DNA of 37,654 nucleotides, taken from positions 1 through 37,654 of the forward strand of contig NZ_JADCDA010000071.1 in assembly GCF_020252405.1 (NCBI RefSeq), given 5' to 3'. Below the pieces are notes generated by a model. That model had not been told where the DNA came from. It made no database searches and saw nothing but the letters and a program-made list of their open reading frames with translations. Below, piece by piece: positions 10,439-32,282 of the stretch (the first letter of the stretch is position 1; each line of letters begins with the position of its first letter). Origin of the DNA: Aestuariivirga sp. (GTDB lineage Bacteria > Pseudomonadota > Alphaproteobacteria > Rhizobiales > Aestuariivirgaceae). The position numbers and the translations under genes were made by a program.

Positions 10439-12874
10439 ATGAAGACCCAGGCTCGTGTCGTGGTGGTCGGCGGCGGCGTTGTCGGCTGTTCGGTGCTCTA
10501 TCATCTCACCAAGGCCGGCTGGAAGGACGTGGTTCTGGTGGAGCGCGATATCCTCACCTCCGGCTCCACCTGGCATGCCGCGGGCGGCTTCCACACGCTG
10601 AACGGCGACCCGAACGTGGCGAAGCTGCAGGGCTATACGATCGCCCTCTACAACGAGCTTGAGCAGATCTCGGGCCAGGCCTGCGGGCTGCACCGAACAG
10701 GCGGCCTCATCCTCGCCGACACGCCGGAGCGCATGGAATGGCTGAAGATGGCGCACGCCCGCGCCCGCTACCTGGGTCTGGAGACCGAGATCATCTCCAT
10801 GGCCGAAGCCAAGAAGATGCATCCGCTGCTGGAAGAGAGATATTTCGCCGGCGCCATGATCGACGCCGCCGACGGCAACCTCGACCCCGAAGGCACCACG
10901 CATGCCTATGCCAAGTCGGCCCGCATCAATGGCGCGGAGATATACCAGGACACCAGGGTGGAGGAGCTGAAGCACCGCCCTGACGGCACATGGAACGTGA
11001 TCACCAACAAGGGCAACATTCACGCCGAGCATGTCGTCAATTGCGGCGGGTTATGGGCGCGCGAAGTGGGCCGCATGGTGGGGATCGAACTGCCCGTGCT
11101 GGCCATGGAGCACATGTATCTCGTCACCGACGAGATGCCGGAGGTCGTGTCCTACAACAAGGAGCGCGGCCACGAATTGCCGCACATCATCGACTTCAAG
11201 TCCGAGATCTACATGCGCCAGGAGCGTTCGGGGCTGGTGCTCGGCGCCTATGAGCGCGCCTGCGTGCCGTGGAGCCCCAGGAACACGCCGTGGCAGTTCG
11301 GCCGGGAGCTGCTCCAGCCCGACCTTGACCGCCTCGCGCCCAACCTCGAGCTCGGCTACAAGCATTTTCCCGCGCTGGCGAACGCCGGCATCAAGCGCGT
11401 CATCAACGGGCCCTTCACCTTCACACCCGATGGCAACCCCATCGTCGGCCCGGTGCAGGGTGTCCGGAACTTCTGGCTCGCCTGCGGCGTCATGGCGGGC
11501 TTCAGCCAGGGCGGCGGCGTGGGCCTGGCGCTGTCACAGTGGATGGCGAACGGCGACCCGGGCTTCGACGTCTGGGCCATGGACTGCGCCCGCTTCGGCG
11601 AATGGGCGACGCGCACCTACACCAACGAAAAGGTGCGCGAGAATTATTCCCGCCGCTTTTCGATCCGCTTCCCCAACGAGGAGCTTCCCGCCGCCCGTCC
11701 GCAGCAGACCACCGCGCTTTACGACGTCATGCTCTCCCAGGGCGCCGTGATGGGCGACTCGTGGGGCCTCGAGACGCCCTTGTGGTTCGCGCCCAAGGGT
11801 GTGGAGCCGAAGGACATCGTGTCGTTCCGCCGCTCCAACGACTTCCAGCACGTGAAGGCAGAGGTGCTGGCGACCCGCACTGGCGTGGGCGTCACCGAGA
11901 TCGCCAATTTCGCCAAGTACCGCTTCTCCGGTCCGGGCGCGGAGGCCTTCCTGTCGCGCATGATGACCAACAAGATGCCGAAGACGGGCCGCATCATCCT
12001 CACGCCGATGCTGAACCCCTCAGGCAAGCTGATCGGCGACTTCACCATCGCCAAGGCGGCGGATGACTGCTTTTACATGTGGGGCTCGTCCCAGGCGCAG
12101 ATATATCACATGCGCTGGTTCGGGCAGCACCTGCCGGCGGACGGCTCGGTCAGGATTGAGCGCCTCGACATGGGTCTCGTCGGCCTCTCCATCGCGGGGC
12201 CGAAGTCGCGCGGGGTGCTGCAGCAGCTGGTCGACGAGGACGTCTCCAACGCCGCATTCAGGTTCATGGACCATCGCTCCATGGACGTGGCGCATTGCCC
12301 CGCCCTCATCAACCGCGTCACCTACACCGGCGACTTGGGCTATGAAATCTGGGTGCGGCCTGAATATCAGCGCCGCCTCTACCGGGAGATCATGCGGGCG
12401 GGCGAAGCGCATGGCATCGTCAACTTCGGCATGCGGGCGCTGCTCTGCATGCGGCTTGAAAAGAACTTCCCCACCTGGTTCCGCGAGCTCCGCCCCATCT
12501 ACGGCGGCTTCGAGGCGGGCATGGACCGCTTCATCGACCTCACCAAGAATGACTTCATCGGCCGCGACGCCGCGATGGAGGAGAAGCGCACGGGCGGCAA
12601 GCTGCGCCGCGTGTCCTTCATCGTCGATGCCGGCGACGCCGACGTGCTGGGCGACGAGCCGATCTGGCGCGAGGGCAAGGTGGTGGGCTGGGTCACCTCC
12701 GGAGGCTTCGCGCATTACGTCGACAAGTCGATGGCGCAGGGCTATGTGCCGGCGGAACTCGTGGGCGATACCTCCGCCGGGGCGTTTGAGATCGAGATCA
12801 TCGGCGAAAACCGCAAGGCCACCATCATCACCGAACCGCCCTTCGACCCGGAAGGCAAGCGGATGAGGGGCTGA
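10439..12874 (+). CDS. FAD-dependent dimethylglycine/sarcosine dehydrogenase-type protein with GcvT domain
   Basis: An 811-residue flavoprotein with the architecture of mammalian dimethylglycine and sarcosine dehydrogenases. It has an N-terminal DAO-type FAD domain (VVVVGGGVVGCSVLYHL, residues 7-23), a linker, and a C-terminal GcvT-like tetrahydrofolate-binding domain (from about 440). The motif SGSTWHAAGG places His46 at the position where FAD is covalently bound in DMGDH/SARDH. Family chemistry is oxidative N-demethylation, with the methyl group passed to tetrahydrofolate. Whether the substrate is dimethylglycine, sarcosine or another N-methyl amine cannot be decided by eye. It is convergent with the sarcosine oxidase operon and thematically linked to it. 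Confidence 0.87.
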   Translation: MKTQARVVVVGGGVVGCSVLYHLTKAGWKDVVLVERDILTSGSTWHAAGGFHTLNGDPNVAKLQGYTIALYNELEQISGQACGLHRTGGLILADTPERMEWLKMAHARARYLGLETEIISMAEAKKMHPLLEERYFAGAMIDAADGNLDPEGTTHAYAKSARINGAEIYQDTRVEELKHRPDGTWNVITNKGNIHAEHVVNCGGLWAREVGRMVGIELPVLAMEHMYLVTDEMPEVVSYNKERGHELPHIIDFKSEIYMRQERSGLVLGAYERACVPWSPRNTPWQFGRELLQPDLDRLAPNLELGYKHFPALANAGIKRVINGPFTFTPDGNPIVGPVQGVRNFWLACGVMAGFSQGGGVGLALSQWMANGDPGFDVWAMDCARFGEWATRTYTNEKVRENYSRRFSIRFPNEELPAARPQQTTALYDVMLSQGAVMGDSWGLETPLWFAPKGVEPKDIVSFRRSNDFQHVKAEVLATRTGVGVTEIANFAKYRFSGPGAEAFLSRMMTNKMPKTGRIILTPMLNPSGKLIGDFTIAKAADDCFYMWGSSQAQIYHMRWFGQHLPADGSVRIERLDMGLVGLSIAGPKSRGVLQQLVDEDVSNAAFRFMDHRSMDVAHCPALINRVTYTGDLGYEIWVRPEYQRRLYREIMRAGEAHGIVNFGMRALLCMRLEKNFPTWFRELRPIYGGFEAGMDRFIDLTKNDFIGRDAAMEEKRTGGKLRRVSFIVDAGDADVLGDEPIWREGKVVGWVTSGGFAHYVDKSMAQGYVPAELVGDTSAGAFEIEIIGENRKATIITEPPFDPEGKRMRG

Positions 12875-12983: not shown

Positions 12984-13067
12984 CGTCATCCCGGCGAAAG
13001 CCGGGACCCCGCTTTGGATCAACATGCAGGGCAAGAAAGCGGGGCCCCGGCTTTCGCCGGGGTGACG
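12984..13067. repeat. 84-base inverted repeat, CGTCATCCCGGCGAAAGCCGGG type
   Basis: The left arm CGTCATCCCGGCGAAAGCCG.. to CCCCGCTTT pairs almost perfectly with the right arm AAAGCGGGG.. to GCCGGGGTGACG. Each arm also contains its own small hairpin (CCGGC-GAAA-GCCGG). It lies between the convergent DMGDH-type gene and the oxygenase at the end of the sox operon, where it could end transcription from both sides. Half-copies occur elsewhere (8205-8225). Confidence 0.8.
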
Positions 13068-13088: not shown

Positions 13089-13883
13089 TCACGCCGTCCG
13101 TCCATAAAAGCCCAGCTGGTCCTCGCGGCTGAACACCACGCCCGGCCTGTCGAAATATGAAAACACCGCGATCATGCGGTCCTTCCCGCCCTTCACCGTG
13201 CCCACCTTGTGGGCGGTGTTCTTGCCGCGGAAGACGTTGAGCGTGCCGGCATCCAGCGTCAGCGATTTCACATCCTTGTCCTCGCCGCGCAGCAGGCGCG
13301 CGACGCCGTCGTAGTTGGGATCGGAGTCGCTTCTCAGATCGGTGCGGTAGATGAACTCGCCGCCCTGCTCCGGCGCCTGCAGCAGGAGCGTGGTGGTGAA
13401 CTCGCTGCGGTCGAAGTGCCAGTTCAGCGCCTCGCCGTCACGGTAGCTCATGACATTGACGCGAGCCAGCGCATCGCGCGCCGGGTACAGCGCCTCCTTC
13501 TCCATCGTCGCGGCGAGGAAGGTGATGAAGTGCGACCATTCGTAGACCCACACCGGGATCGACTGGCTGATCTGGTCGGCGCAGACCGTGTGGTTAACCG
13601 TCTCGCACAAGGCAAGTGCCGGATGGTCGGCGCTGAGGCCGGGCATGTCCTTGCGGAAATAGACATTGTGGCGGCGCTTGTGGGTGAAGGAGAGCGTCTC
13701 CATCACCGGGCGGATTTCGTCCACCGCCTGCTTCAGGGCGTCAGGCTTCACGAAGCCCGCGAGATTATACATGCCGTCCTTGGCGAGGTCGGCCCGGCAC
13801 CTGGCGACCAGCCCCTCCCATTCAGGCGTGCCCGGCTTGTCGAGCGGATAACGGTCGAGATCGAGGATGTCATGTATCGGCAT
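13089..13883 (-). CDS. 2-oxoglutarate/Fe(II) oxygenase of the HalD/BesD (ArpA-like) family, hydroxylase-type
   Basis: A 264-residue double-stranded beta-helix protein. NWHFDRSEF gives His156 and Asp158, and GKNTAHKVG gives His225. Arg236 (KDRMIAVFSYF) is the likely 2-oxoglutarate anchor. The spacing matches, from memory, the BesD lysine halogenase, which uses His137 and His204 with Gly139 in place of the Asp to make room for chloride. Here the Asp is present, so a hydroxylase or oxidative demethylase is expected, not a halogenase. The start overlaps the end of soxG by 14 bases. A longer start at 13916 is possible, but the AGGT upstream and the shorter overlap favour 13883. It is the last gene of the sox operon. 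Substrate unknown; an N-methyl or basic amino acid is a fair guess. Confidence 0.78.
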   Translation of the reverse strand: MPIHDILDLDRYPLDKPGTPEWEGLVARCRADLAKDGMYNLAGFVKPDALKQAVDEIRPVMETLSFTHKRRHNVYFRKDMPGLSADHPALALCETVNHTVCADQISQSIPVWVYEWSHFITFLAATMEKEALYPARDALARVNVMSYRDGEALNWHFDRSEFTTTLLLQAPEQGGEFIYRTDLRSDSDPNYDGVARLLRGEDKDVKSLTLDAGTLNVFRGKNTAHKVGTVKGGKDRMIAVFSYFDRPGVVFSREDQLGFYGRTA

Positions 13884-14424
13884 TTGTGCGGTGACCTGCG
13901 AATTCGAGCGCCGCATCCGTGACGGCTTCCCACACGTCGAGCGAAAAGGTGCGCATCACGTAGATGTCAAAGGCGTTCCCGGCCGTGCAATGCACGGTGA
14001 CCGGCGTGTGGTGGAGGCCGGTGAGGGCCACCGTGCCGGGCGTGAAGACCGACGCATCCCAGTCAACCGGCATCAGCTTGGCCAGAACGGCGCGCGCCGG
14101 AGCACCTTCCAGCGCGATGCGCACGCGGCTGCTCGTCAGAGGCGTTACCGCGCATTGGCCGTGAAGCCGCGCGGCGGCATCATCCGTCTCAGGTCCAATG
14201 ATCCAGAACTGCGCCGGGCCGATGCGGAACAGGGCGCGGTCGCCATTCACCTGCGCCCGCGCCACCGTCTCCGGCAACGCTCCGACGACATCGGAGAGCT
14301 TCGCCTCGAAATCGGGCGAGAGGCCCGCCACCTGTGTCAGCGTGAAGCCGGGGCGCTCCGCGATCCTGAGCGCCGCGCCCGCATAGGGCCTCGCTGAAGC
14401 CAGTGCCGATCTGCGCTCAAGCAT
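13870..14424 (-). CDS. soxG: Sarcosine oxidase gamma subunit
   Basis: A 184-residue protein with the SoxG pattern: LTQVAGLSPDFEAKL, RIGPAQFWIIGPE, SSRVRIALEGAPARAVLAKL and VTVHCTAGNAFDIYVMRTF. It is the smallest folate-fold subunit of the heterotetrameric enzyme and a structural relative of GcvT, without a cofactor of its own. It starts eight bases inside the end of soxA and is followed in overlap by the oxygenase gene. Confidence 0.92.
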   Translation of the reverse strand: MLERRSALASARPYAGAALRIAERPGFTLTQVAGLSPDFEAKLSDVVGALPETVARAQVNGDRALFRIGPAQFWIIGPETDDAAARLHGQCAVTPLTSSRVRIALEGAPARAVLAKLMPVDWDASVFTPGTVALTGLHHTPVTVHCTAGNAFDIYVMRTFSLDVWEAVTDAALEFAGHRTNADT

Positions 14425-17371
14425 GGAGGCGGGCTCCTTCCCTGTCGATGAAATGGGGCGACACGATCTTCAGCCGCGCCTGCTCGTTCTTGAGCGGGAA
14501 GGCGGCGATGATCTCCTCGCCTTCGTGCTTGAGGCCACCCTTGTAGAGGCCGAGCGCGATGAACTTGTTGAGCTCCGTCGACCAGGTCACCGAGGTGATG
14601 TAGCCGCGGCCATGGCCCTTGATCTCGTCCGATGCCGCAAACAGGATCGACCCGCCGCGCAGCTTCTTGTCAGGCTCCATCAGCTCGAGGCCAACGAGGC
14701 TCCAGCGGTCAGGCGCCTGGCAATCCTCGCGGAAGCGCAGCGCCTTGCCCACATAGTCCTTGTCCTTGCCGGCCATCTTGCCGAGTCCCAAATCATCGAG
14801 CGTGTTGCGGTGGTCAAGCTCGAGGCCCGCCACATGGCCCTTCTCGATGCGCAGGCTGGCCAGCGCCTCGAGGCCATAGGGCTTGATGCCGGTGGGCGCC
14901 GCCGCCTTCAGAATATGCTCCCACAGGCTGATCGCATAATCCGCCGCGACATGGACCTCAAAGGCGAGTTCGCCCGAGAAGGACATGCGCAGCAGGCGCA
15001 CGGTGACGCCCCCGAAGACGAAGTCCCTGCAGCCCATATGGGGAAGTGCGGCGTCAGAAAGGTCAGCCTCCGGGAAGGCCAGCTCAAGCGCCGCGCGCGC
15101 CCTGGGGCCCGAAACCGCCATGCCGGCCCATTCGTCCGTGAGGGAGGCGACCTGCACATTGAGCTCCGGCCACTGCATCTGCAGCAGGTATTCGAGCCAC
15201 GACATGACCTCGCCGGCCTGGGCGGTTGTCGTGGTCATGTAGAACTGATTTTCGGTGATGCGCGCCGTGGCGCCGTCATCCAGCACGATGCCGTCGTCGT
15301 ACAGCATCACGCCATAGCGCACCTTGCCGACGGGCAGCCTGGCGAAGCCGTTGACATAGACGCGGTTGAGGAACTCCGCCGCGTCCGGCCCCTGAATGTC
15401 GATCTTGCCGAGCGTTGACACATCGGCGAGGCCCACGCCGCGGCGAACGAGCTCCATTTCCTTCACATAGGCCGTCTCGGGCGTGGCGCCGGCCCAGGCA
15501 TAGAACCAGGCGCGCTTCCAAAGCCCCGCGTCGATGAAGGTGGCGCCGTTCTTCACGTGCCAGTCATTGAGCGGCGAGCGGCGCACAGGGCGAAAATGCG
15601 AACCGCGCGTGCGGCCGGCGATGGCCCCCATGGTGAGCGGCGCATAAGGGGGCCGGAAGGTGGTCGTGCCCGCTTCCGGAATGGTGATGCCGCGATATTC
15701 AGCCATCAGGGCGAGCGCATTGATGTTGGAGGTCTTGCCCTGGTCAGTGCCCATGCCGAGCGTGGTGTAACGCTTCAGGTGCTCGACCGAGCGATAGCCT
15801 TCCTGATGCGCGACCTTCACGTCCCTGATGGTCACGTCGCTCTGGAAGTCGACGAAGGCCTTGCCCTTGGCGCCCTGCGTCGGCGCCCATGTCGGCAGGA
15901 TCGCGTAGGTGCGGTCCGTCGCATGCTCCGGCGCATAGGCGGGCCGCGTCTTGCCAAAGCCGGCATGGGAAGCAGCGGAGGCGCCGGCATTGGAGCCTTC
16001 CGCGATGGCGGCAGAGAGGCCGAAGGTGCCCATCATCGCGCCCGCACCGAAATGCGAGCCAGGGAAGCCGCCCGGCACGAAGCCGGCAACAGCTTCATCA
16101 TATTTCGGCTTGATGCCGCCGTGGGACGAGAGATGCACCACGGGCGACCAGCCCCCCGCCATGCCAACCGCATCGCACTCGACAGTAACCGCATGGGGCC
16201 CGCCGAGTTTCACCGCCTTGACGGTCTTGGCGCCTTCGACATCGACGATGCCGCTGCCGGGAAAGATGGCGATGCCCTGCGCACCGGCGCGCGTGAGAAT
16301 ATCGGCGGAGACGTTGCTGCGATGGTCCGCCACCGTCACCGCGACGCCCGCCGCGGCGAGGTCGAGCGCCGCCTGATAGGCCGTGTCGTTGTTGGTGACG
16401 AGCACGGCACGCTTGTCCGGGGCGACCGCATAGCGGTTGACATAGGTTCTGAGCGCCGAGGCGAGCAGCACGCCAGGGCGGTCGTTATTGGAGAAGACCA
16501 GCGGCCGCTCGATGGCGCCGGTGGCCATCACGATGGTCCTGGCGCGCAGCTGGGTGAGCAGCATGCGCGCCTCGCCCTTCTGCGCGGAGGGGAAGAGGTG
16601 GCTGCGGTTCTGGACGAGCACGGCGAGGTTGCCGTCATAGAGGCCCTGCACGGTCGTGCGGGTGAAGGCCTCGGCATTGGGGAGGCTCTTCAGCTCGTTG
16701 ATGCAGGCCAGGCGCCAAGCCTCCTGTTCGGCATCATTGCAGGAGAGCAGCGAGCCGCCGAAGTCAGTGTCCTGCTCGGCCAGCACGACGCGGGCACCAC
16801 TGCGCGCCGCCGTCAGCGCCGCTGCGAGGCCCGCGGGGCCGGAGCCGACCACCAGCACGTCGCAGAAAGCGTAGCACATGTCATAACGGTCAGGATCGGG
16901 GAGAGCCGTGGCGCGGCCCAGGCCCGCCGCCTTGCGGATGAACGGCTCGTAGAACATCCACGAGCCCTTCGAGGGGCCCATGAAGGTCTTGTAGTAGAAG
17001 CCCGACTGGAACAGGGGGGCGAGCAGGGAATTCACCGCCATCAGGTCGAAGTCCGGCGAGGGCCAGGCATTCTGCGCGCGGGCCACGAGGCCATCCACGA
17101 GGTCCACCATGGTGGCCGCGACATTGGGCTCAGTGGCAGCCCCCTCGCCGAGCGTGAAAAGCGCATTCGGCTCCTCGATCCCCGCCGCGACAATGCCGCG
17201 CGGGCGGTGATATTTGAAGCTGCGGCCGATCAGCAGCCTGTCATTGGCGAGCAGCGCGGAGGCCAGCGTGTCGCCCGCGAAGCCCGGCAACGGCTTGCCG
17301 CCGAGGCGGGCGGATATGGGCCTGGCGCGGTCGATGCGGCCGCCCTGCGGCAGCCTGCGGAAGCTGGTCAT
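14417..17371 (-). CDS. soxA: Sarcosine oxidase alpha subunit
   Basis: A 984-residue subunit. In order it has a ferredoxin-like N-terminal domain (Fer2_4 type, about residues 10-100, no intact 2Fe-2S Cys set), a pyridine-nucleotide-disulfide-oxidoreductase-like domain beginning CDVLVVGSGPAGLAAALTAA (about 172), and a C-terminal GcvT-like tetrahydrofolate domain (about 590 onward). The enzyme converts sarcosine, oxygen and tetrahydrofolate to glycine, hydrogen peroxide and 5,10-methylene-tetrahydrofolate. This subunit holds NAD, and the methyl group is loaded on folate in its C-terminal half. Order soxB-soxD-soxA-soxG with short overlaps (four bases with soxD, eight with soxG) is the standard operon. 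Full family length, no damage seen. Confidence 0.96.
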   Translation of the reverse strand: MTSFRRLPQGGRIDRARPISARLGGKPLPGFAGDTLASALLANDRLLIGRSFKYHRPRGIVAAGIEEPNALFTLGEGAATEPNVAATMVDLVDGLVARAQNAWPSPDFDLMAVNSLLAPLFQSGFYYKTFMGPSKGSWMFYEPFIRKAAGLGRATALPDPDRYDMCYAFCDVLVVGSGPAGLAAALTAARSGARVVLAEQDTDFGGSLLSCNDAEQEAWRLACINELKSLPNAEAFTRTTVQGLYDGNLAVLVQNRSHLFPSAQKGEARMLLTQLRARTIVMATGAIERPLVFSNNDRPGVLLASALRTYVNRYAVAPDKRAVLVTNNDTAYQAALDLAAAGVAVTVADHRSNVSADILTRAGAQGIAIFPGSGIVDVEGAKTVKAVKLGGPHAVTVECDAVGMAGGWSPVVHLSSHGGIKPKYDEAVAGFVPGGFPGSHFGAGAMMGTFGLSAAIAEGSNAGASAASHAGFGKTRPAYAPEHATDRTYAILPTWAPTQGAKGKAFVDFQSDVTIRDVKVAHQEGYRSVEHLKRYTTLGMGTDQGKTSNINALALMAEYRGITIPEAGTTTFRPPYAPLTMGAIAGRTRGSHFRPVRRSPLNDWHVKNGATFIDAGLWKRAWFYAWAGATPETAYVKEMELVRRGVGLADVSTLGKIDIQGPDAAEFLNRVYVNGFARLPVGKVRYGVMLYDDGIVLDDGATARITENQFYMTTTTAQAGEVMSWLEYLLQMQWPELNVQVASLTDEWAGMAVSGPRARAALELAFPEADLSDAALPHMGCRDFVFGGVTVRLLRMSFSGELAFEVHVAADYAISLWEHILKAAAPTGIKPYGLEALASLRIEKGHVAGLELDHRNTLDDLGLGKMAGKDKDYVGKALRFREDCQAPDRWSLVGLELMEPDKKLRGGSILFAASDEIKGHGRGYITSVTWSTELNKFIALGLYKGGLKHEGEEIIAAFPLKNEQARLKIVSPHFIDREGARLHA

Positions 17372-17613
17372 GACACCACCCCGCCGATTTCGTTGGTGGC
17401 CGTATTCCGCGCGAGCTTGAACCAGCGGCGGCAGCCCAGCACGTGCTGCCAGTATTCCGTGTGCGGACCTTTGGGGTTTTCAAAGACAAAGACATGGTCA
17501 TGCCAGGTCCTGAGATCACCCGTGCCGTGCTTCGGGCGTTGCTTTGTCGCATCGCCGCCATAGCGGAATTCGGAGACGTCGCGGTCGCCGCAGTGGGGGC
17601 ACGGGATCATCAT
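17368..17613 (-). CDS. soxD: Sarcosine oxidase delta subunit
   Basis: An 81-residue zinc-binding subunit. MMIPCPHCGDRDVSEFRYGGD carries the CxxC pair. HDHVFVFENPKGPHTEYWQH and GCRRWF supply the further His/Cys ligands of the small subunit. It overlaps both soxB upstream and soxA downstream by four bases, so its synthesis is coupled to both. Confidence 0.95.
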   Translation of the reverse strand: MMIPCPHCGDRDVSEFRYGGDATKQRPKHGTGDLRTWHDHVFVFENPKGPHTEYWQHVLGCRRWFKLARNTATNEIGGVVS

Positions 17614-18869
17614 TGCTTATAGGTCCAGTTGCCGAGGCCGAATTCGTCGAGCTCCCTACCCTTCCCGAAACGGTCGAGCGAAAAATCGCGCACGAGATCA
17701 TGTTCCCGGTCATGGGCGATGGTGTGGGAAAAGGTCCAGCCGGAGGCGGGTGTTGCCTTGAAGCCCTGATAGCACCAGCCGCCGTTGAGATAGAGGTTCC
17801 TGACGTCAGTCTTGCAGATGAAGGGGCTGCCGTCCGGCGTCATGTCCTGGATGCCGCCCCAGTGGCGCAGCAGGCGCAGGCGCGAGATGAAGGGCATGAG
17901 CGAGACGGCGCATTCCGCAACCGTCTGGATGCGGTTGAACTGGCCGCGCTGGGTATAGGTGTTGAAGCCGTCGATGTGGCCGCCGAAGACGAGGCCGCCC
18001 TTGTCGGACTGCGAGAGATAGAAGAGCTCCGCGCCCCAGGAGACCACATGGTCCACGATGGGCTTGACCGGCTCGGTCACGAAGGCCTGCAGGATGTGGC
18101 TTTCGACGGGCAGCCTGAGGCCCGCCATCTTCGCCACGTGGCTGGTGTGGCCCGCCACCGCGATCCCGACCTTCCCCGCATTGATGCGGCCGCGCGAGGT
18201 TTCGACACCGGAGACCAAGCCGTCATTGATGAGGAAGCCCGTGACCTCGCAATTCTCGATGATGTGGACGCCCAGCGCCGAGGCCGCGCGGGCATAGCCC
18301 CAGGCCACCGCGTCATGCCGCACGGTGCCCGCGCGCGGCTGCATGATGGCGCCAAGGATCGGCCAGCGGGCGTCCTTCGACCAGTCGAGATAGGGCAGAA
18401 GCTTCCGCACCTCGCCCGCATCCAGCAGCTCGGCATCGATGCCGTTCAGACGCATGATGTTTCCGCGCCGGGCGAAGACGTCCATCTGCACCGGGCTGAT
18501 GGCCAGCACGATCTGACCGCGCTGGGAGACCATGCAGTTGAAGTTGAGCTCGTGCGAGAGCCCTTCCCACAGCTTCAGCGAATGCTCGAAAAAGGCCGTG
18601 TTGCCGCCGATCATGTAGTTCGAACGGATCAGCGTGGTGTTGCGGCCCACATTGCCGGAGCCGATGTAGCTCCGCTCGATCACCGCGACATTTGTGATGC
18701 CGTGGTTCTTGGCAAGATAATAGGCCGTGGCGAGGCCATGGCCGCCGCCGCCGACGATGACCACGTCATAGGAGGATTTGGGTTCGGGCGACTCCCAGGC
18801 CTTCGGCCACGGCATATCCGGGTCGAGGGCGTGGCGCGCAAGGGCTAAGGCTGAATAATGCTTGGACAC
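17610..18869 (-). CDS. soxB: Sarcosine oxidase beta subunit
   Basis: A 419-residue DAO-fold flavoprotein, the catalytic subunit. The N-terminus MSKHYSALALARHAL and PKSSYDVVIVGGGGHGLATAYYL (FAD-binding dinucleotide fold, about residues 30-52) are typical. So is the FAD-loop GSGNVGRNTTLIRSNY. GTVRHDAVAWG (His185) is the region I associate with the covalently attached FMN of this enzyme. It is the first sox gene, but lies only 49 bases after the exporter gene on the same strand, with a small stem-loop in between, so it may be cotranscribed with the peptidase and exporter. Confidence 0.96.
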   Translation of the reverse strand: MSKHYSALALARHALDPDMPWPKAWESPEPKSSYDVVIVGGGGHGLATAYYLAKNHGITNVAVIERSYIGSGNVGRNTTLIRSNYMIGGNTAFFEHSLKLWEGLSHELNFNCMVSQRGQIVLAISPVQMDVFARRGNIMRLNGIDAELLDAGEVRKLLPYLDWSKDARWPILGAIMQPRAGTVRHDAVAWGYARAASALGVHIIENCEVTGFLINDGLVSGVETSRGRINAGKVGIAVAGHTSHVAKMAGLRLPVESHILQAFVTEPVKPIVDHVVSWGAELFYLSQSDKGGLVFGGHIDGFNTYTQRGQFNRIQTVAECAVSLMPFISRLRLLRHWGGIQDMTPDGSPFICKTDVRNLYLNGGWCYQGFKATPASGWTFSHTIAHDREHDLVRDFSLDRFGKGRELDEFGLGNWTYKQ

Positions 18870-18918: not shown

Positions 18919-20115
18919 TCACCTCCGGCGCCGTTCCGCCCATTCCGTGACGGCGAAGGCCACCAGTCCCAACCCTGCGAAACCGCCCACCAGGGGAATC
19001 ACCGTGCCATTATAAAGCTGGCCGATGGACCCCCCGGTCACAATGGCAATGAGGGAGGAGAGCGAGCCGACAATCGCCGCCGCCATGCCGGCAATGCGCC
19101 CCATCGGTTCCATGGCGATGGCGTTGAAATTGCCGAACAGCAGGCCCGAGCAGAAGAAGCTGAGGAACAGATAGCCCGCAATGAACCACAGGGGCGGCGG
19201 GCCGTCGGCCATGAGGCTCACCACCAGGGCGATGGCCGACAGCGCCAGGAAGGCGCGCAGCGCATATTTCGACAGCCGCCGCATGCCATAGCGCATCACG
19301 AGCCGCGCGTTCACCATCATGGCAATGGCCATGCCGCCGGCGAAGAAGGCGAACCACAGCGCGAAGTAGGCGCCCTGACCGTAAAGCTCCGCAAACACCT
19401 GCTGCGACGTGCCGAGATAGACGATGAAGGCGCCGAAGATCGTGCCTGCACCCACCGTATAGCCCATGGCAACGGGGTTGCGCAGCACCTGCCCCGCCGC
19501 CCGGAGCAGCGAGGATACGGCGAGCGGCGTTCGCTTGGCGCGCGGCAGCGTCTCCTCCTGGCGGAACCACAGCCACAGCCCGGCAATGACGCCCACCACC
19601 ACGAAGCCCACGAAAATCATGCGCCAGCCGGCGAAGAGCAGCACCAGCGTGCCGATCGAAGGCGCGATCATCGGCACCAGCATGAACACCATCATCACGA
19701 AGGACATGACGCGCGCCATGGCGGCCCCCGCCTGCCCGTCGCGCACCATGGCGATGGACACGATGCGCGGGGCAGACGCCCCGAAGCCCTGGATGAAGCG
19801 CCCCACGAGGATCATCGGAAAGTTGACGGAGAACAGGCAGATCAGCGCGCCCAGCGCATAGAAGCCCAGGCCGATGATGATGGCGGGCTTGCGGCCAAGC
19901 GCATCCGACCACGGGCCATAGATCAGCGTGCCCAGCGTCAGGCCGCCGAAGAACGTGGTGATGATGAACTGGCGGCTGTTGGGGTCCGCCGCGCCCAGCT
20001 CGTGGGCGATTGTGCCGATGGCGGGCAGCATGGTGTCAATCGACATCGCCACCATGGCGTTGAGCAACGCCACCAGCAGGATGAACTCGACCGAGAGCTT
20101 TGCCGGGCTCCGCAT
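18919..20115 (-). CDS. Bcr/CflA-family major facilitator transporter
   Basis: A 398-residue membrane protein with 12 predicted hydrophobic segments and the drug:H+ antiporter hallmarks of Bcr/CflA. SIDTMLPAIGTIAHELG is the first periplasmic loop. GTLIYGPWSDALGRKPAI is motif A between helices 2 and 3, and FIQGFGASAPRI the motif in helix 4. Family members export small drugs, peptides or amino acids such as cysteine. The chosen start is the ATG that shares one base with the stop of the peptidase gene (TGATG). The open frame extends to 20211, but only into the peptidase. Coupling to a D-aminopeptidase suggests traffic of amino acids or peptides, which is inference. Confidence 0.87.
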   Translation of the reverse strand: MRSPAKLSVEFILLVALLNAMVAMSIDTMLPAIGTIAHELGAADPNSRQFIITTFFGGLTLGTLIYGPWSDALGRKPAIIIGLGFYALGALICLFSVNFPMILVGRFIQGFGASAPRIVSIAMVRDGQAGAAMARVMSFVMMVFMLVPMIAPSIGTLVLLFAGWRMIFVGFVVVGVIAGLWLWFRQEETLPRAKRTPLAVSSLLRAAGQVLRNPVAMGYTVGAGTIFGAFIVYLGTSQQVFAELYGQGAYFALWFAFFAGGMAIAMMVNARLVMRYGMRRLSKYALRAFLALSAIALVVSLMADGPPPLWFIAGYLFLSFFCSGLLFGNFNAIAMEPMGRIAGMAAAIVGSLSSLIAIVTGGSIGQLYNGTVIPLVGGFAGLGLVAFAVTEWAERRRR

Positions 20116-20912
20116 CAGGTCACATAGTTCAACATGCGCAGCACGTCGAAATAATGATTGGTCTCGAAGCGAAGCGTGCGATTGCCGATATGTTCCATGC
20201 CGGGATACCACTGGTGGCGCGCCGCAAGCGTTGGGCTGGAATAGGCGATCTCGACGATGACATGCTCCGGCATCGCGAGAAGCGACGCCGCGAGGTCGCC
20301 GCGCAGGGCCGTGGCGGCGCCATCTCGGATTGCTTTCACCGCCGCGGCGGGCGTCATGGAAATCGTCGACTGGCCGCGGCCTTGCTTCACGGCACAGCGC
20401 CCGACATGCGGGTTCACCTCTTCGACTTCGTCCATCAACCCCTTGTCGCCGCTGACGAACACCGTGGGCACGCCCAGCATGGAGGAGGCGAGCGCATGGA
20501 TAAGGTATTCGGAAGCCCGGTGGCCGTTGATGCGGATCTCGGCGGCATCAAGCGACAGGGTGTGAGCGAGGCTGTTCTCCTCCGAGCCCGCGGCGGAGTG
20601 ATAGCCGATCATCATCACCGCATCGAATGTCTCGTCCAGCTCCTGCACCATGCCGAGCGGGTGGCCAGCCCAGGAGCGGATGAGCCGCACATCGGCGGGC
20701 AGCATGGAGGCGATGATGTTGCGACCGGAACAATGCGCATCCTTCACCAGAATCTCGGTGGCGCCCGCGATCTGCGCGCCTTCGACCGCAGCCACCGCTT
20801 CCCTGGTCATCTGCTCGCGGAATTCCTGCCAGTCGGCATGGTTCTTCTCCGCCTCGTCCCAGTGCGTGATGCCAGCGCAGCCTTCGATATCGACGCTGAT
20901 GTAGACCTTCAT
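20115..20912 (-). CDS. M55-family D-aminopeptidase (DppA-like)
   Basis: A 265-residue zinc peptidase. The metal ligands match DppA of Bacillus subtilis almost residue for residue: Asp8 and Glu10 (SVDIEGCAG), His60 (VKDAHCSG), His105 (IGYHSAAG) and Glu135 (HRASEY). DppA is a decameric D-Ala-specific aminopeptidase. The open frame reaches 20936, but MKVYISVDIEG is the family start, with a GGGGGA ribosome site upstream. It is the first gene of the minus-strand run, divergent from the P450 gene across 73 bases, and translationally coupled to the exporter. Confidence 0.88.
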   Translation of the reverse strand: MKVYISVDIEGCAGITHWDEAEKNHADWQEFREQMTREAVAAVEGAQIAGATEILVKDAHCSGRNIIASMLPADVRLIRSWAGHPLGMVQELDETFDAVMMIGYHSAAGSEENSLAHTLSLDAAEIRINGHRASEYLIHALASSMLGVPTVFVSGDKGLMDEVEEVNPHVGRCAVKQGRGQSTISMTPAAAVKAIRDGAATALRGDLAASLLAMPEHVIVEIAYSSPTLAARHQWYPGMEHIGNRTLRFETNHYFDVLRMLNYVT

Positions 20913-20985
20913 GTTCGTCCCCCAAATCACGGACACTCATAGCCGGACTTGCCATAATAGGCGACTTCGCGGGAAGATGGCAGCC

Positions 20986-22191
20986 ATGCGCATCGATACC
21001 GCACGCCGTTCCGTTTTCCTCGATCCGGTCGACCCCGCTTTCTACAACGATCCCTACCCCGCCTATCACGCAATCCGGGCGGAGCTTCCCGTGTTCCGGT
21101 GGGAACACTATGGCCACTGGTGTTTCGCCCGCTTCGAGGACGTGAACGCCCTGCTGCGCGACCGCCGCTTCGGCCGCCATATCCTGCACATCGCCAGCCC
21201 CGGAGAGCTGGGCTGGCCGGAGACGCCTGCCCATCTCAAGCCCTTCCACGACTTCGAATCGCATTCGCTGCTGGAACTCGAGCCGCCTGTCCACACCAGG
21301 CTGCGGAGCCTCATCAACCGCTCTTTCCTGTCCCGCCAGGTGGAGCGGATGAGGCCCGCAATCACCAGCCTCGCCAATGGCTTGATCGACCGCTTTGAGG
21401 CAAAGGGCAAGGCGGAACTGCTGAGCGACTTCGCAACGCCCATCCCCGTCATCGTGATCTGCGATCTTCTGGGTGTTCCCACCGACATGGCACAGCAGCT
21501 GCTCGCCTGGTCGCATGACATGGTGGCGATGTACCAGGCCCGCCGCGACCGTGCGGTGGAAGACAGCGCCGTGAAGGCCACGGTGGAATTCTCCGATTTC
21601 ATGCGGGGCTATATCACCAGACGGCGGAAGCAGCCGAAAGAGGATCTTCTCTCCGAACTGATCCGGGCGGAGGAACAGGGCGCGAAGCTGACGGAGGATG
21701 AGCTTGTCACCACCGCCATCCTGATCCTCAATGCGGGCCACGAGGCGACGGTGCATGCCATCGGCAACGCCATCAAGTGCCTGCTCGAACAAGGCATCCG
21801 CACCGGCATCGAGGAGGCCTGTGTGGAAGAGACGCTCAGATACGACGCGCCCCTTCACCTGTTCACCCGCTATGCGCTGGAAGATCTTGAATATGCCGGG
21901 ATCCGCCTGAAGAAGGGCGAGAGCGTGGGCCTCTTGCTGGGTGCCGCCAACCGGGACCCGGCGCGATTTCCCGAGCCGGACCGCTTCATTCCCGGTCGAG
22001 ACCCCAACCCCCAGGTCAGCTTCGGTGCGGGCATCCACTTCTGCATCGGCGCACCCTTGGCACGGCTGGAGATGCAGATCGCCCTGCCGCTGCTGTTCCA
22101 GCGCCTGCCCCGGCTGGCGTTGGCGGAGCAGCCGGGATACCGGAACGCCTATCATTTCCATGGGCTGGAGGCCCTGAACGTCACCTTCTGA
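20986..22191 (+). CDS. Cytochrome P450
   Basis: A 401-residue soluble bacterial P450. The I-helix oxygen-activation motif is AGHEAT. EETLRYDAPLHLFTR holds ExxR. The heme-binding loop is FGAGIHFCIGAPLARLE, with the thiolate Cys. DPVDPAFYNDPYPAYHAIR near the N-terminus is also typical. It needs a ferredoxin and reductase, neither of which is adjacent. Substrate unknown. The GGGAAG at 20971-20976 is well placed for the ATG at 20986 and too close for the ATG at 20977. It is followed 102 bases later by the MttB homologue on the same strand. Confidence 0.92.
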   Translation: MRIDTARRSVFLDPVDPAFYNDPYPAYHAIRAELPVFRWEHYGHWCFARFEDVNALLRDRRFGRHILHIASPGELGWPETPAHLKPFHDFESHSLLELEPPVHTRLRSLINRSFLSRQVERMRPAITSLANGLIDRFEAKGKAELLSDFATPIPVIVICDLLGVPTDMAQQLLAWSHDMVAMYQARRDRAVEDSAVKATVEFSDFMRGYITRRRKQPKEDLLSELIRAEEQGAKLTEDELVTTAILILNAGHEATVHAIGNAIKCLLEQGIRTGIEEACVEETLRYDAPLHLFTRYALEDLEYAGIRLKKGESVGLLLGAANRDPARFPEPDRFIPGRDPNPQVSFGAGIHFCIGAPLARLEMQIALPLLFQRLPRLALAEQPGYRNAYHFHGLEALNVTF

Positions 22192-22293
22192 GGCGTCGTT
22201 TCCCGGCCATCCCCTGACGTTTCCCTTCACACCCGGCATGGCTGTTGAGCGTAAACCACGCTTCAGGTGAAAACTTCTCAACAGGCCCTTGAC

Positions 22294-23874
22294 ATGACCG
22301 ACGTCCAGCCCGCCTCCGCCCCATCCTCCAGCCGCCGCGTCCGCGGTGGAGCCGACGCCCGCCGCGCCGCCCGCACCTCGACCACCGTGAAGCAGGCGGG
22401 CTTCATCCGCCGCGCCATCAAACCCTATGAACCCTTCACGGACGAGCAGCTGGAGCTGATCGAGCACAACGCGGACATCGTGCTGCAGGAAATTGGCCTC
22501 GACATTTATGAGGACGAGGAGGCGGTCCGCATGTGGAAGGACGCAGGCGCCGACGTGAAGCCGTCCGCCACCGACCCGAAACGCTTCCGCCTGCGCTTCC
22601 CCAAGGGCCTCGTCCGCTCGCTCATCAAGACCGCGCCGCGCGAATATGTACAGCATGCGCGCAACCCGGCGAACAATGTGACCATCGGCGGCAACAACAT
22701 GGTTTTTGCCCCGGTCTATGGCCCGCCCTTCATCCGCAACCTCGACGAAGGCCGCCGCTATGCCACGATCGAGGATTTCCGCAACTTCGCCAAGCTCGTC
22801 TACATGCTGCCGAGCCTGCACCATGCGGGCGGCACGCTGTGCGAACCGGTGGACATTCCGGTGGCCAAGCGCCACCTGGACATGATCTACACCCACATCA
22901 AATATTCCGACAAACCCTTCATGGCCTCGGTGACGGCGGGCGAACGTTCGGCCGATTCCGTTGCCATGGCGGAGATGGTCTTCGGCAAGGAGTTCGTGGA
23001 CCAGAACTGCGTGATGACCTCGCTCATCAACGCCAATTCGCCCATGGTTTGGGATGGCGTGATGCTGGGCGCCCTGAAGGTTCTGGCGCGGGCCAACCAG
23101 GCCTGCGTGATCTCGCCCTTCATCGTGGCGGGCGCAATGTCGCCGGTGACGACGGTCGGAACCCTCACGCAGATCCTGGCTGAGGCCTCCGTCGGCATCG
23201 CCTTCACGCAGCTCTGCCGCCCCGGTGCGCCCGTGGTGTTCGGCACCTTCGCGGCGTCCATGTCCATGCAGTCGGGTGCGCCCACCTTCGGTTCGCCGGA
23301 GCCCGCCATGGTGACATTCGGCGCGGCTCAGCTCGCGCGGCGCATGGGCGTTCCCTTCCGTTCCGGCGGCAGCCTCTGCGGCTCGAAGCTTCCCGATGCG
23401 CAGGCGGCCTATGAGAGTGCGAACACCATGTGGTCGACGCTGCTCTCGGGCGTGAACTTCTGCCTCCATGCCGCAGGCTGGCTCGAGGGCGGGCTGGCCT
23501 CCGGCTACGAGAAGCTCATCATGGATGCCGACCAGCTGACCATGTTCCAGAAATTCGCCGGGGGCGTTGACTTCTCGGAGAACGGCCAGGCGCTGGACGC
23601 CATCCGCGAGGTGGGCCCCGGCTCGCATTACCTGGGCTGCTCGCACACCCAGGCCAATTTCGAAACCGCCTTCTGGCGCTCTTCTCTCGCCGACAACAAC
23701 TCCTTCGAGCAATGGCGCGACGAGGGGGAGAAGGACATCGTGGTCCGCGCCAATGAGCGCTGGAAGCAGATGCTGCGCGACTACCAGGCCCCCGCGCTGG
23801 ACGAGGGCATCGACGAGCAGCTCCAGGCCTTCATGGCCAGGCGCAAGGACGTGCTGCCCGACAATGTGAGCTGA
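22294..23874 (+). CDS. Trimethylamine methyltransferase (MttB) family protein, non-pyrrolysine type
   Basis: A protein of about 526 residues of the MttB superfamily, a TIM barrel that passes a methyl group from a quaternary amine to a corrinoid protein. Recognisable segments are YEPFTDEQLELIEHNADIVL, NNMVFAPVYGPPFIRNLDEG, FMASVTAGERSADSVAMAEM and LLSGVNFCLHAAGWLEGGL. The frame is continuous without an in-frame amber codon, so it is not the pyrrolysine enzyme. Family members without pyrrolysine act on glycine betaine, carnitine or proline betaine. No corrinoid protein or MtgA-like partner is in the window. A GTG at 22267 would add nine residues but has no ribosome site; the ATG at 22294 is preferred. 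Confidence 0.88.
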   Translation: MTDVQPASAPSSSRRVRGGADARRAARTSTTVKQAGFIRRAIKPYEPFTDEQLELIEHNADIVLQEIGLDIYEDEEAVRMWKDAGADVKPSATDPKRFRLRFPKGLVRSLIKTAPREYVQHARNPANNVTIGGNNMVFAPVYGPPFIRNLDEGRRYATIEDFRNFAKLVYMLPSLHHAGGTLCEPVDIPVAKRHLDMIYTHIKYSDKPFMASVTAGERSADSVAMAEMVFGKEFVDQNCVMTSLINANSPMVWDGVMLGALKVLARANQACVISPFIVAGAMSPVTTVGTLTQILAEASVGIAFTQLCRPGAPVVFGTFAASMSMQSGAPTFGSPEPAMVTFGAAQLARRMGVPFRSGGSLCGSKLPDAQAAYESANTMWSTLLSGVNFCLHAAGWLEGGLASGYEKLIMDADQLTMFQKFAGGVDFSENGQALDAIREVGPGSHYLGCSHTQANFETAFWRSSLADNNSFEQWRDEGEKDIVVRANERWKQMLRDYQAPALDEGIDEQLQAFMARRKDVLPDNVS

Positions 23875-31010: not shown

Positions 31011-32282
31011 TCAGCGCTTCTTCCGGGGCGATTTCCTGGGTGCCGCTTTCCTGCGGGCGCCACCGCCCGCCTTCACGATCAGGTGCTCCGGGCCATAGGG
31101 GAAGCCGGTGATGTTGCGGTTGCCCTTCCCGGTGATGACCAGAATGTCATGCTCGCGATAACCGCCCGCACCCTTCTGGCCCTCGGGGATCATGATCATG
31201 GGCTCCATGGATACCACCATGCCGGGCTCCAGCACGGTGTCGCAATCCTCGCGCAGCTCGAGGCCGCCCTCGCGGCCATAATAGTGGCAGAGCACGCCGA
31301 ATGAATGGCCATAGCCGAAGGTGCGGTATTTGAGCAGGTCGTGGCTGGCGTAGATCTCGTTCAGCGCCTTGGCCACGTCGGAGCACTTGGCGCCGGGAAC
31401 GAGCAGCTTCTTGCCCTCGTCATGGACGTGGCAGTTGATCTCCCACAGGCGGATGTGTTCCCTGGACGCCTGTCCGGCGAACAGCGTGCGCTCAAGGGCG
31501 ACGTAATAGCCCGCCACCATCGGGAAGCAGTTGAGGCTGAGGATGTCGCCACGCCTGATCTTGCGCGAGGTGACGGGGTTGTGGGCGCCATCGGTGTTGA
31601 CCCCGGACTGGAACCAGGTCCAGGTGTCCATGAGCTCGCCCTGCGGCCAGACCCTGGCGATTTCGCGCACCATGGCCTGGGTGGAATGCAGCGCCACCTC
31701 ATGCTCCGGCACGCCCACGGCGATGGCTTCAACGCAGGCCGCGCCGCCGATGTCGGCAATGCGCGTCATCCTGGCGATGTGCTTGATCTCTTCCGCGCTC
31801 TTGATCATGCGGAGCCGCATCGAGGGCGCCGCCACATCGACGAACTCGACGCTGGGAAAGGCATCATCCAGCTGCTTGCGGAAGTCGAGGTTCACATGGT
31901 CGAACTCGATGCCGATGCGCTTGGCGCCCTTCATCAGGCCCTGGATGGCGACGAAGTAATTCTCTTTCGACCAGTCGGTGTAGGTCAGATTGTCGCCGAA
32001 GGTGCGGCGCGCCGGCTGGCCGCCGTCGATCGCCGCCGTCACCGAGGTCGTCTTGGAGGGGGTGATGACCAGGCCGTATTTGCGGCCGAAGTAGCAATAG
32101 AGGAAGTCGGAAAGGTAATTGATGTTGTGGTAGCTGGTGAACAGGCAAGCATCGACCTTGGCGGTCTTCATCCAGCCGCGGATGCCGTCCTGGCGCCGCT
32201 TCATCTCCGCGTCGGAGAAGGTTGGCTTCGGCTTCTTGCCGTTGTTGCGATAGTCGACGACCGCGGGACGGGCGAGGTTCAT
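31011..32282 (-). CDS. Creatinase (creatine amidinohydrolase)
   Basis: A 423-residue pita-bread enzyme hydrolysing creatine to sarcosine and urea. It resembles Pseudomonas creatinase along its whole length: TSYHNINYLSDFLYC, DTWTWFQSG, NTDGAHNPVT and FGYGHSFG. The catalytic set is in place with an offset of two from the Pseudomonas numbering: His234 (His232), Glu264 (Glu262), Arg337 (Arg335) and Glu360 (Glu358). The metal ligands of true aminopeptidase P are not kept, which separates it from prolidases. The last 19 residues (AGGGARRKAAPRKSPRKKR) form a basic tail beyond the usual end. GGAGAAA precedes the ATG. It is divergent from a LysR gene whose site lies upstream of a TTGACA box. Confidence 0.93.
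   Translation of the reverse strand: MNLARPAVVDYRNNGKKPKPTFSDAEMKRRQDGIRGWMKTAKVDACLFTSYHNINYLSDFLYCYFGRKYGLVITPSKTTSVTAAIDGGQPARRTFGDNLTYTDWSKENYFVAIQGLMKGAKRIGIEFDHVNLDFRKQLDDAFPSVEFVDVAAPSMRLRMIKSAEEIKHIARMTRIADIGGAACVEAIAVGVPEHEVALHSTQAMVREIARVWPQGELMDTWTWFQSGVNTDGAHNPVTSRKIRRGDILSLNCFPMVAGYYVALERTLFAGQASREHIRLWEINCHVHDEGKKLLVPGAKCSDVAKALNEIYASHDLLKYRTFGYGHSFGVLCHYYGREGGLELREDCDTVLEPGMVVSMEPMIMIPEGQKGAGGYREHDILVITGKGNRNITGFPYGPEHLIVKAGGGARRKAAPRKSPRKKR

Follow-up and report, generated by a model that had tools for sequence, protein, structure and literature searches.

The HalD/BesD family of Fe(II)/2-oxoglutarate (2OG)-dependent oxygenases has been studied chiefly for the halogenation of free amino acids. 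We know of no described sarcosine-oxidase operon with a 2OG oxygenase, and none is described among the matches listed from open-licence literature. Here we analyse a gene of this family that appears to have become the last gene of such an operon in Aestuariivirga sp., on a stretch of 37,654 nucleotides (nt) of contig NZ_JADCDA010000071.1 (assembly GCF_020252405.1) that we call the window:

13089..13883, minus strand: HalD/BesD-family Fe(II)/2OG oxygenase of the Asp type, 264 amino acids (open frame, profile, alignment and fold)

Family, fold and iron site of the oxygenase

An earlier, sequence-only reading of the window had placed this protein in the BesD/HalD family, a placement borne out by profile and fold. 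The oxygenase scored 38.4 bits against Pfam HalD (PF23169; cut-off 26), a profile that all members of set A2 (37/37) match at E <= 0.001. By sequence profile the amino-acid halogenases of the family are the nearest solved structures (HalB, E 1e-12), and the predicted fold (pLDDT 94) has HalB, HalD, BesD and a BesD-like lysine hydroxylase (PDB 7jsd) as its nearest solved structures, the modelled double-stranded beta-helix coming closest to those of BesD, HalA, HalB, HalD and 'Hydrox'. We number residues from the ATG at 13883, at or near the equivalent of which the proteins of relatives also start; the same frame stays open upstream as far as an ATG at 13916. On this numbering the protein carries W155-H156-F157-D158, H225 and R236, and in the family profiles its WHFD aligns with WHWG of HalB and HalD and with WHWD of 7jsd. 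By alignment, then, the pattern of a His-x-(Asp/Gly)...His iron site with a 2OG-binding Arg is present, at the very residues that the sequence-only reading had picked out. All 124 aligned rows (123 distinct) carry H156, D158, H225 and R236, which is far from chance; the rows were gathered by tblastn with the window protein at E <= 1e-10, a search that would not reach halogenases, and proteins with stops or with fewer than 200 aligned residues were excluded.

From the triad, Arg236 and the fold, and by analogy with its family, the oxygenase very likely catalyses 2OG-dependent C-H hydroxylation. An Asp-type triad predicts hydroxylation rather than halogenation, as had been proposed, and because of Asp158, where halogenases have Gly, we reject a halogenase. 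The further claim that a halogenase Gly had 'reverted' to Asp found no support: Asp stands in all 124 rows and Gly in none (0/124), though this row set would not reach halogenases and the question was judged without a rooted tree that includes them. An excerpt of one study proposes that the BesD halogenase derives from a hydroxylase (PMC10187165).

The BesD positions with which the site had been compared are 137, 139 and 204; PMC13244439 numbers the iron His residues 140 and 207, gives His137 as substrate-binding and lists Glu123 among residues affecting transition states. Counting back from the iron His of 7jsd, in sequence alignment alone, His137 falls at Leu153 of the oxygenase (Leu in 105/124 rows) and Glu123 at Leu139 (Leu in 112/124). 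Glu123 of BesD presumably binds the lysine ammonium, and leucines in place of these lysine-contact residues would disfavour lysine as a substrate.

The window's genome holds one copy of the oxygenase gene, and relatives are present in 51 of 387 sampled genomes of the same class. Four genomes of this class (G354, G139, G205 and G416; loci L123, L124, L129 and L138) each carry at least six distant copies. We found no characterised member of this large Asp-type branch. We regard the oxygenase as a further member of a known enzyme family, of the Asp type like one characterised hydroxylase.

Joining of the oxygenase gene to a probable sox operon

As the sequence-only reading had noticed, the start codon of the oxygenase gene lies inside the end of soxG. 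To place this overlap among close relatives, we searched 37 genomes of the genus and found the oxygenase in 27 and a strong soxG match (E below 1e-17) in 33; neither was found in 4 of the 37. The two are linked, with a soxG match on the same contig within ~3 kb, in 21 of the 27 gene-bearing genomes (G000, 1, 4, 10-13, 15, 16, 17, 19, 20, 22, 24, 25, 27-30, 33 and 34; in G019 the oxygenase is in pieces at contig ends). The remaining six (G002, 5, 8, 23, 35 and 36, some of them fragmented drafts) carry the oxygenase on a different contig from the best soxG match. The sox-linked oxygenases form one clade of 18 rows in the oxygenase tree (support 98/95). Conservation of the soxG linkage, which the sequence-only reading had put forward as a check, therefore holds for one clade of the genus but is nearly absent outside it, where sox genes lie near the oxygenase at 1 of 60 loci (L051, ~8 kb apart) versus 48 of 60 for a LysR-type regulator gene.

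Within the sox-linked clade, a divergent LysR gene occupies 902-2690 nt between soxG and the oxygenase at nine loci (L031, from A. litoralis KCTC 52945, and L032, 34, 37, 42, 44, 46, 49 and 69). It is absent from eight others (the window, L033, 35, 36, 38, 39, 40 and 41), at which soxG and the oxygenase are separated, in the same order and by called starts, by -14, +1, +12, -1, -4, -4, -4 and -4 nt; at L045, which has no called upstream gene, a soxG match lies 21 nt before the oxygenase match. The oxygenase tree requires at least 6 changes of LysR state, and a tree built from six flanking proteins at least 5; in the latter, L042 was left out, L034 and L040 cover less than half of the alignment columns, stops were written as gaps and some forks around the window are unresolved. 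The LysR state thus changed at least five times in the clade and is best read as four to six losses, five changes being four losses plus one regain, or six losses if regain is disallowed; loss is likelier than gain because the outgroup loci mostly carry the LysR gene. No strong match to the LysR protein was found in the window's genome (best 31% identity, with a 237-residue piece; the draft is 94% complete).

Most simply, the 14-nt overlap is an outcome of LysR loss that was repeated in sister lineages, and it suggests selection for joint expression of the oxygenase with sox. Of all these features the recurrent regulator loss is the most unusual, and within its limits it is well supported. It offers a natural series, in close genomes, in which a neighbouring regulator gene is lost and a separate gene becomes the last gene of an operon.

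The window carries the following features around the oxygenase gene:

10439..12874, plus strand: DMGDH-type FAD oxidoreductase fused to GcvT domains, convergent with the oxygenase gene; present at 12 of 20 genus loci
13870..13883, minus strand: overlap of the oxygenase start and the soxG end, 14 nt (soxG TGA at 13872-13870)
13870..14424, minus strand: soxG-like, sarcosine oxidase gamma family (NCBIfam 66.6 bits, below the cut-off of 143.95)
14417..17371, minus strand: soxA-like, alpha subunit with C-terminal GcvT domains (family profiles)
17368..17613, minus strand: soxD-like (NCBIfam 99.5 bits versus a cut-off of 116.5; Pfam SoxD above cut-off)
17610..18869, minus strand: soxB-like (family profiles)
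18919..20115, minus strand: MFS transporter, named by eye, 49 nt upstream of soxB; syntenic in the genus
20115..20936, minus strand: M55 D-aminopeptidase-like (Pfam), head of the probable operon
20977..22191, plus strand: cytochrome P450, named by eye, divergent from the operon; at 11 of 17 sox-linked loci
22267..23874, plus strand: MttB-family methyltransferase (276.4 bits versus the trimethylamine-MttB cut-off of 525)
31011..32282, minus strand: creatinase (creatine amidinohydrolase; PDB 7yto, E 2e-180; 1chm, E 2e-174)

The genes of the soxG-soxA-soxD-soxB block overlap by 8, 4 and 4 nt, and the seven same-strand genes, with the M55 gene first and the oxygenase last, probably form one operon and would then be transcribed together. 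A promoter and terminator scan around the oxygenase revealed nothing clearly above shuffled controls. The MttB-family gene beside the P450 gene, divergent from the sox operon, recurs in the genus. Between the DMGDH-type gene and the oxygenase (window positions 12984-13067) lies a 32-nt inverted repeat, 94% complementary, that is part of a palindromic element whose 21-base core occurs at 78 places in the draft (41 + 37; up to 3 mismatches), versus 0 for a reversed control.

The sox set of the window is one of three in the 2.9-Mb draft (contigs C77, C68 and C38), the other two SoxA paralogues being 46% and 45% identical to that of the window. It has the lowest NCBIfam scores of the three sets: 1236.8 bits versus 1351.4 and 1351.5 for SoxA, 637.2 versus 711.1 and 675.1 for SoxB, and 66.6 versus 123.7 and 106 for SoxG, for which none reaches the cut-off. 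SoxBDAG-like tetramers also act as N-methylglutamate dehydrogenase, as discussed for SAR11 in an excerpt of PMC3160333. Given the three paralogues, the low scores and this second activity, the window's tetramer may act on something other than sarcosine. The C68 set has a type III glutamate-ammonia ligase gene nearby and may itself be an N-methylglutamate dehydrogenase.

Neighbours across relatives and the proposed function

To survey the neighbours of the oxygenase, we scanned one genome for each of 84,980 species and used the best 80 loci (60-88% identical) from 463 confirmed relatives; many of these loci are short contigs, and loci and lineages are only partly independent. Neighbour genes were called with a codon-use model, and 40 arbitrary 20-kb regions, taken at round and hence non-random coordinates from gene-bearing genomes of some taxa only, served as controls. 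The labels Rieske, M24 and LysR are names of NCBIfam models, and the scanned members fall below the cut-offs (GbcA 175.5/670, DddP 372.8/600 and GcvA 213.4/288 bits). The commonest partner of near relatives is the divergent LysR gene (60 of 80 loci versus 0 of 40 controls), which lies at most two genes upstream at 58 of the 80 loci, or 56 of the 74 with at least 1.5 kb upstream. It is followed by a dipeptide-type binding protein (23), two enolase-superfamily proteins (16 and 17), DMGDH-type (16), SoxB (14), SoxA (13), GbcA-like Rieske (12), DddP-like M24 (11), MttB (6), Ldh (2) and creatinase (1). The control regions yielded DMGDH (2), Rieske, binding protein and Ldh (1 each) and none of the remaining probes; the Ldh probe shows no excess (2/80 versus 1/40). 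A second set, made up of 42 loci that are mostly more distant or duplicates, gave LysR 8, M24 6, DMGDH 4, Rieske 3, SoxA and binding protein 2 each, SoxB, MttB, Ldh and creatinase 1 each, and enolase 0.

We then split the loci by kinship. At least one N-demethylation gene (SoxA, SoxB, DMGDH, MttB or Rieske) accompanies the oxygenase at 16 of the 20 genus loci, and LysR at 12. The 60 loci outside the genus have such a gene at 13, versus 3 of 40 controls (p 0.09), and LysR at 48; counted by lineage (80% identity), the figures are 9/30 (p 0.02) and 22/30. Pooling all 80 loci gives 29/80 (p 8e-4), or 16/38 by lineage (p 5e-4), figures that lean on the genus. This split into 20 genus, 60 outside and 24 distant loci shows LysR as a steady partner confined to near relatives, and an association with N-demethylation genes that is strong within the genus but modest beyond it. 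The coupling to N-methyl catabolism that the sequence-only reading had proposed stands within the genus. One Rhizobium metagenome-assembled genome (L051) carries sox, DMGDH-type, MttB, LysR, oxygenase and Rieske genes inside 12 kb, and one Mesorhizobium plasmid has an annotated row of LysR, trimethylamine-methyltransferase family, Ldh, 2OG oxygenase, Rieske-type oxygenase and binding protein genes.

From these neighbours alone, we tentatively propose that the oxygenase works in catabolism, hydroxylating a C-H bond of an N-methylated amino acid or betaine, and feeds N-demethylation; catalytic activity, substrate class, order of steps, regulation and co-transcription are all parts of this proposal that we infer. 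His156, Asp158 and His225 would hold the iron and Arg236 the 2OG, and substrate, O2 and 2OG would be converted to hydroxylated substrate, succinate and CO2. The target would be a small N-methylated amino acid or betaine, hydroxylated most likely on its carbon skeleton, a site that we prefer to N-demethylation because Rieske and MttB-family genes accompany the oxygenase at other loci. The co-encoded SoxBDAG-type tetramer and the nearby DMGDH-type enzyme would then remove N-methyl groups from the hydroxylated product, or from a later product of it, and hand the methyl carbon to tetrahydrofolate. The divergent LysR gene of near relatives, gone in the window where the oxygenase now ends the sox operon, would be the regulator of the oxygenase. 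Literature on homarine and hydroxyproline-betaine gave no usable lead.

Several observations weigh against this proposal. First, 51 of the 80 loci lack any N-demethylation gene in the available stretch (many being short contigs), and counted by locus these genes are only weakly enriched outside the genus. Second, more distant copies show little of either tie: an N-demethylation gene and LysR are each found at 8 of 42 loci of the second set, and at 2 and 3, respectively, of 24 loci with ~35-40% identical copies. Third, other contexts recur. Mesorhizobium copies (L076-L108) adjoin a GntR-like gene (by eye; 15/80 loci), two enolase-superfamily proteins and a dipeptide-type ABC transporter, and two distant plasmid-borne relatives in Pantoea and Yersinia (35-38% identical) sit among amino-acid genes, each adjoined by a divergent LysR gene. 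Finally, the oxygenase is dispensable in the genus, because six genomes carry sox and lack the oxygenase, and because damage has hit two of the sox-linked copies, both directly beside soxG: that of G015 (L181) retains only about residues 206-264 and that of G024 (L177) lacks about residues 87-163, which include H156 and D158. For the Mesorhizobium loci, one of the enolase-superfamily proteins resembles cis-3-hydroxy-L-proline dehydratase, which was considered as the downstream enzyme and not called (349.5 bits versus a cut-off of 500).

An unlikely but serious alternative is N-demethylation of a quaternary or tertiary amine by the oxygenase itself, which would hydroxylate an N-methyl group so that formaldehyde is released and the SoxBDAG substrate is made directly. 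Its setting among N-demethylation genes in the genus would fit, and other 2OG enzymes do such chemistry, for example the methylguanidine hydroxylase MgdH as described in an excerpt of PMC12508155. However, the GbcA-like Rieske (12/80 loci) and MttB-family (6/80) genes could already fill the first demethylation, although their matches are far below cut-offs, and MgdH is a 41-kDa protein. We give a similarly low probability to the view that the oxygenase hydroxylates an ordinary amino acid under LysR control and reached its place behind soxG by local rearrangement, with no shared pathway. LysR is the commonest partner of near relatives outside the genus as well, a Lys/Arg/Orn-type binding-protein gene (224.3 bits, cut-off 256.35) lies beside or near the oxygenase at 6 loci, including Pseudomonas and Burkholderia, and characterised relatives act on free amino acids, as their PDB titles also indicate. 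The weak enrichment of N-demethylation genes outside the genus favours this view too and makes hydroxylation of an N-methylated compound less probable. On the other side, DMGDH-type, MttB, Rieske and, in L051, sox genes are found near the oxygenase outside the genus, and the tight joining to soxG recurs in several sister lineages.

Creatine breakdown, in which the oxygenase would hydroxylate creatine or a relative with creatinase and Sox in the same route, is very improbable: creatinase is encoded on the window's contig and a creatinase-like gene is also found in L164, two genes away from the oxygenase, and in L093, at a distance of ~5 kb, but creatine is a weak candidate because three genomes (G016, G017 and G020; 93-100% complete) keep oxygenase and sox but match creatinase weakly at best (lowest E 1e-5 to 8e-5), and in G035 and G036 sox and creatinase share a contig, with the oxygenase on a different one. 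Strong creatinase matches occur in most of the 37 genus genomes, in several on the soxG contig.

Hydroxylation of an N-methylated amino acid or betaine would, if true, be a new step in a familiar kind of pathway, supplied by a family whose members known hitherto are lysine-type halogenases and hydroxylases, and the substrate, if found, would reveal the compound on which the third SoxBDAG paralogue of these bacteria acts as a demethylase. The fuller picture is less likely than not: aerobic catabolism of an N-methylated amino acid or betaine would include a hydroxylation so far undescribed, the genus would have repeatedly drawn the oxygenase into a third, divergent SoxBDAG operon by regulator deletion, and this 'sarcosine oxidase' would really demethylate that other compound.

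Comparison with known systems

Among known enzymes, the HalB, HalD, HalA and BesD halogenases (7u6i, 7u6h, 9oer and 6nie) are the closest solved structures by sequence profile and fold. They differ at the position of Asp158, where HalB and HalD have Gly, as do BesD and HalA according to the excerpt of PMC13244439. The BesD-like lysine hydroxylase 'Hydrox' (7jsd) is 14% identical to the oxygenase in structural alignment and has Glu123 and His137 where the oxygenase aligns Leu139 and Leu153. MgdH (PMC12508155), too, is a 2OG oxygenase, and its operon likewise serves the catabolism of a methylated nitrogen compound, but it differs in its size of 41 kDa and in that its operon is of the guanidine-riboswitch type. 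With SoxBDAG and N-methylglutamate dehydrogenase, the window shares a GcvT-bearing alpha subunit, encoded in the same operon that the oxygenase ends; its tetramer differs from the described ones known to us in having the oxygenase in its probable operon and in being one of three paralogues.
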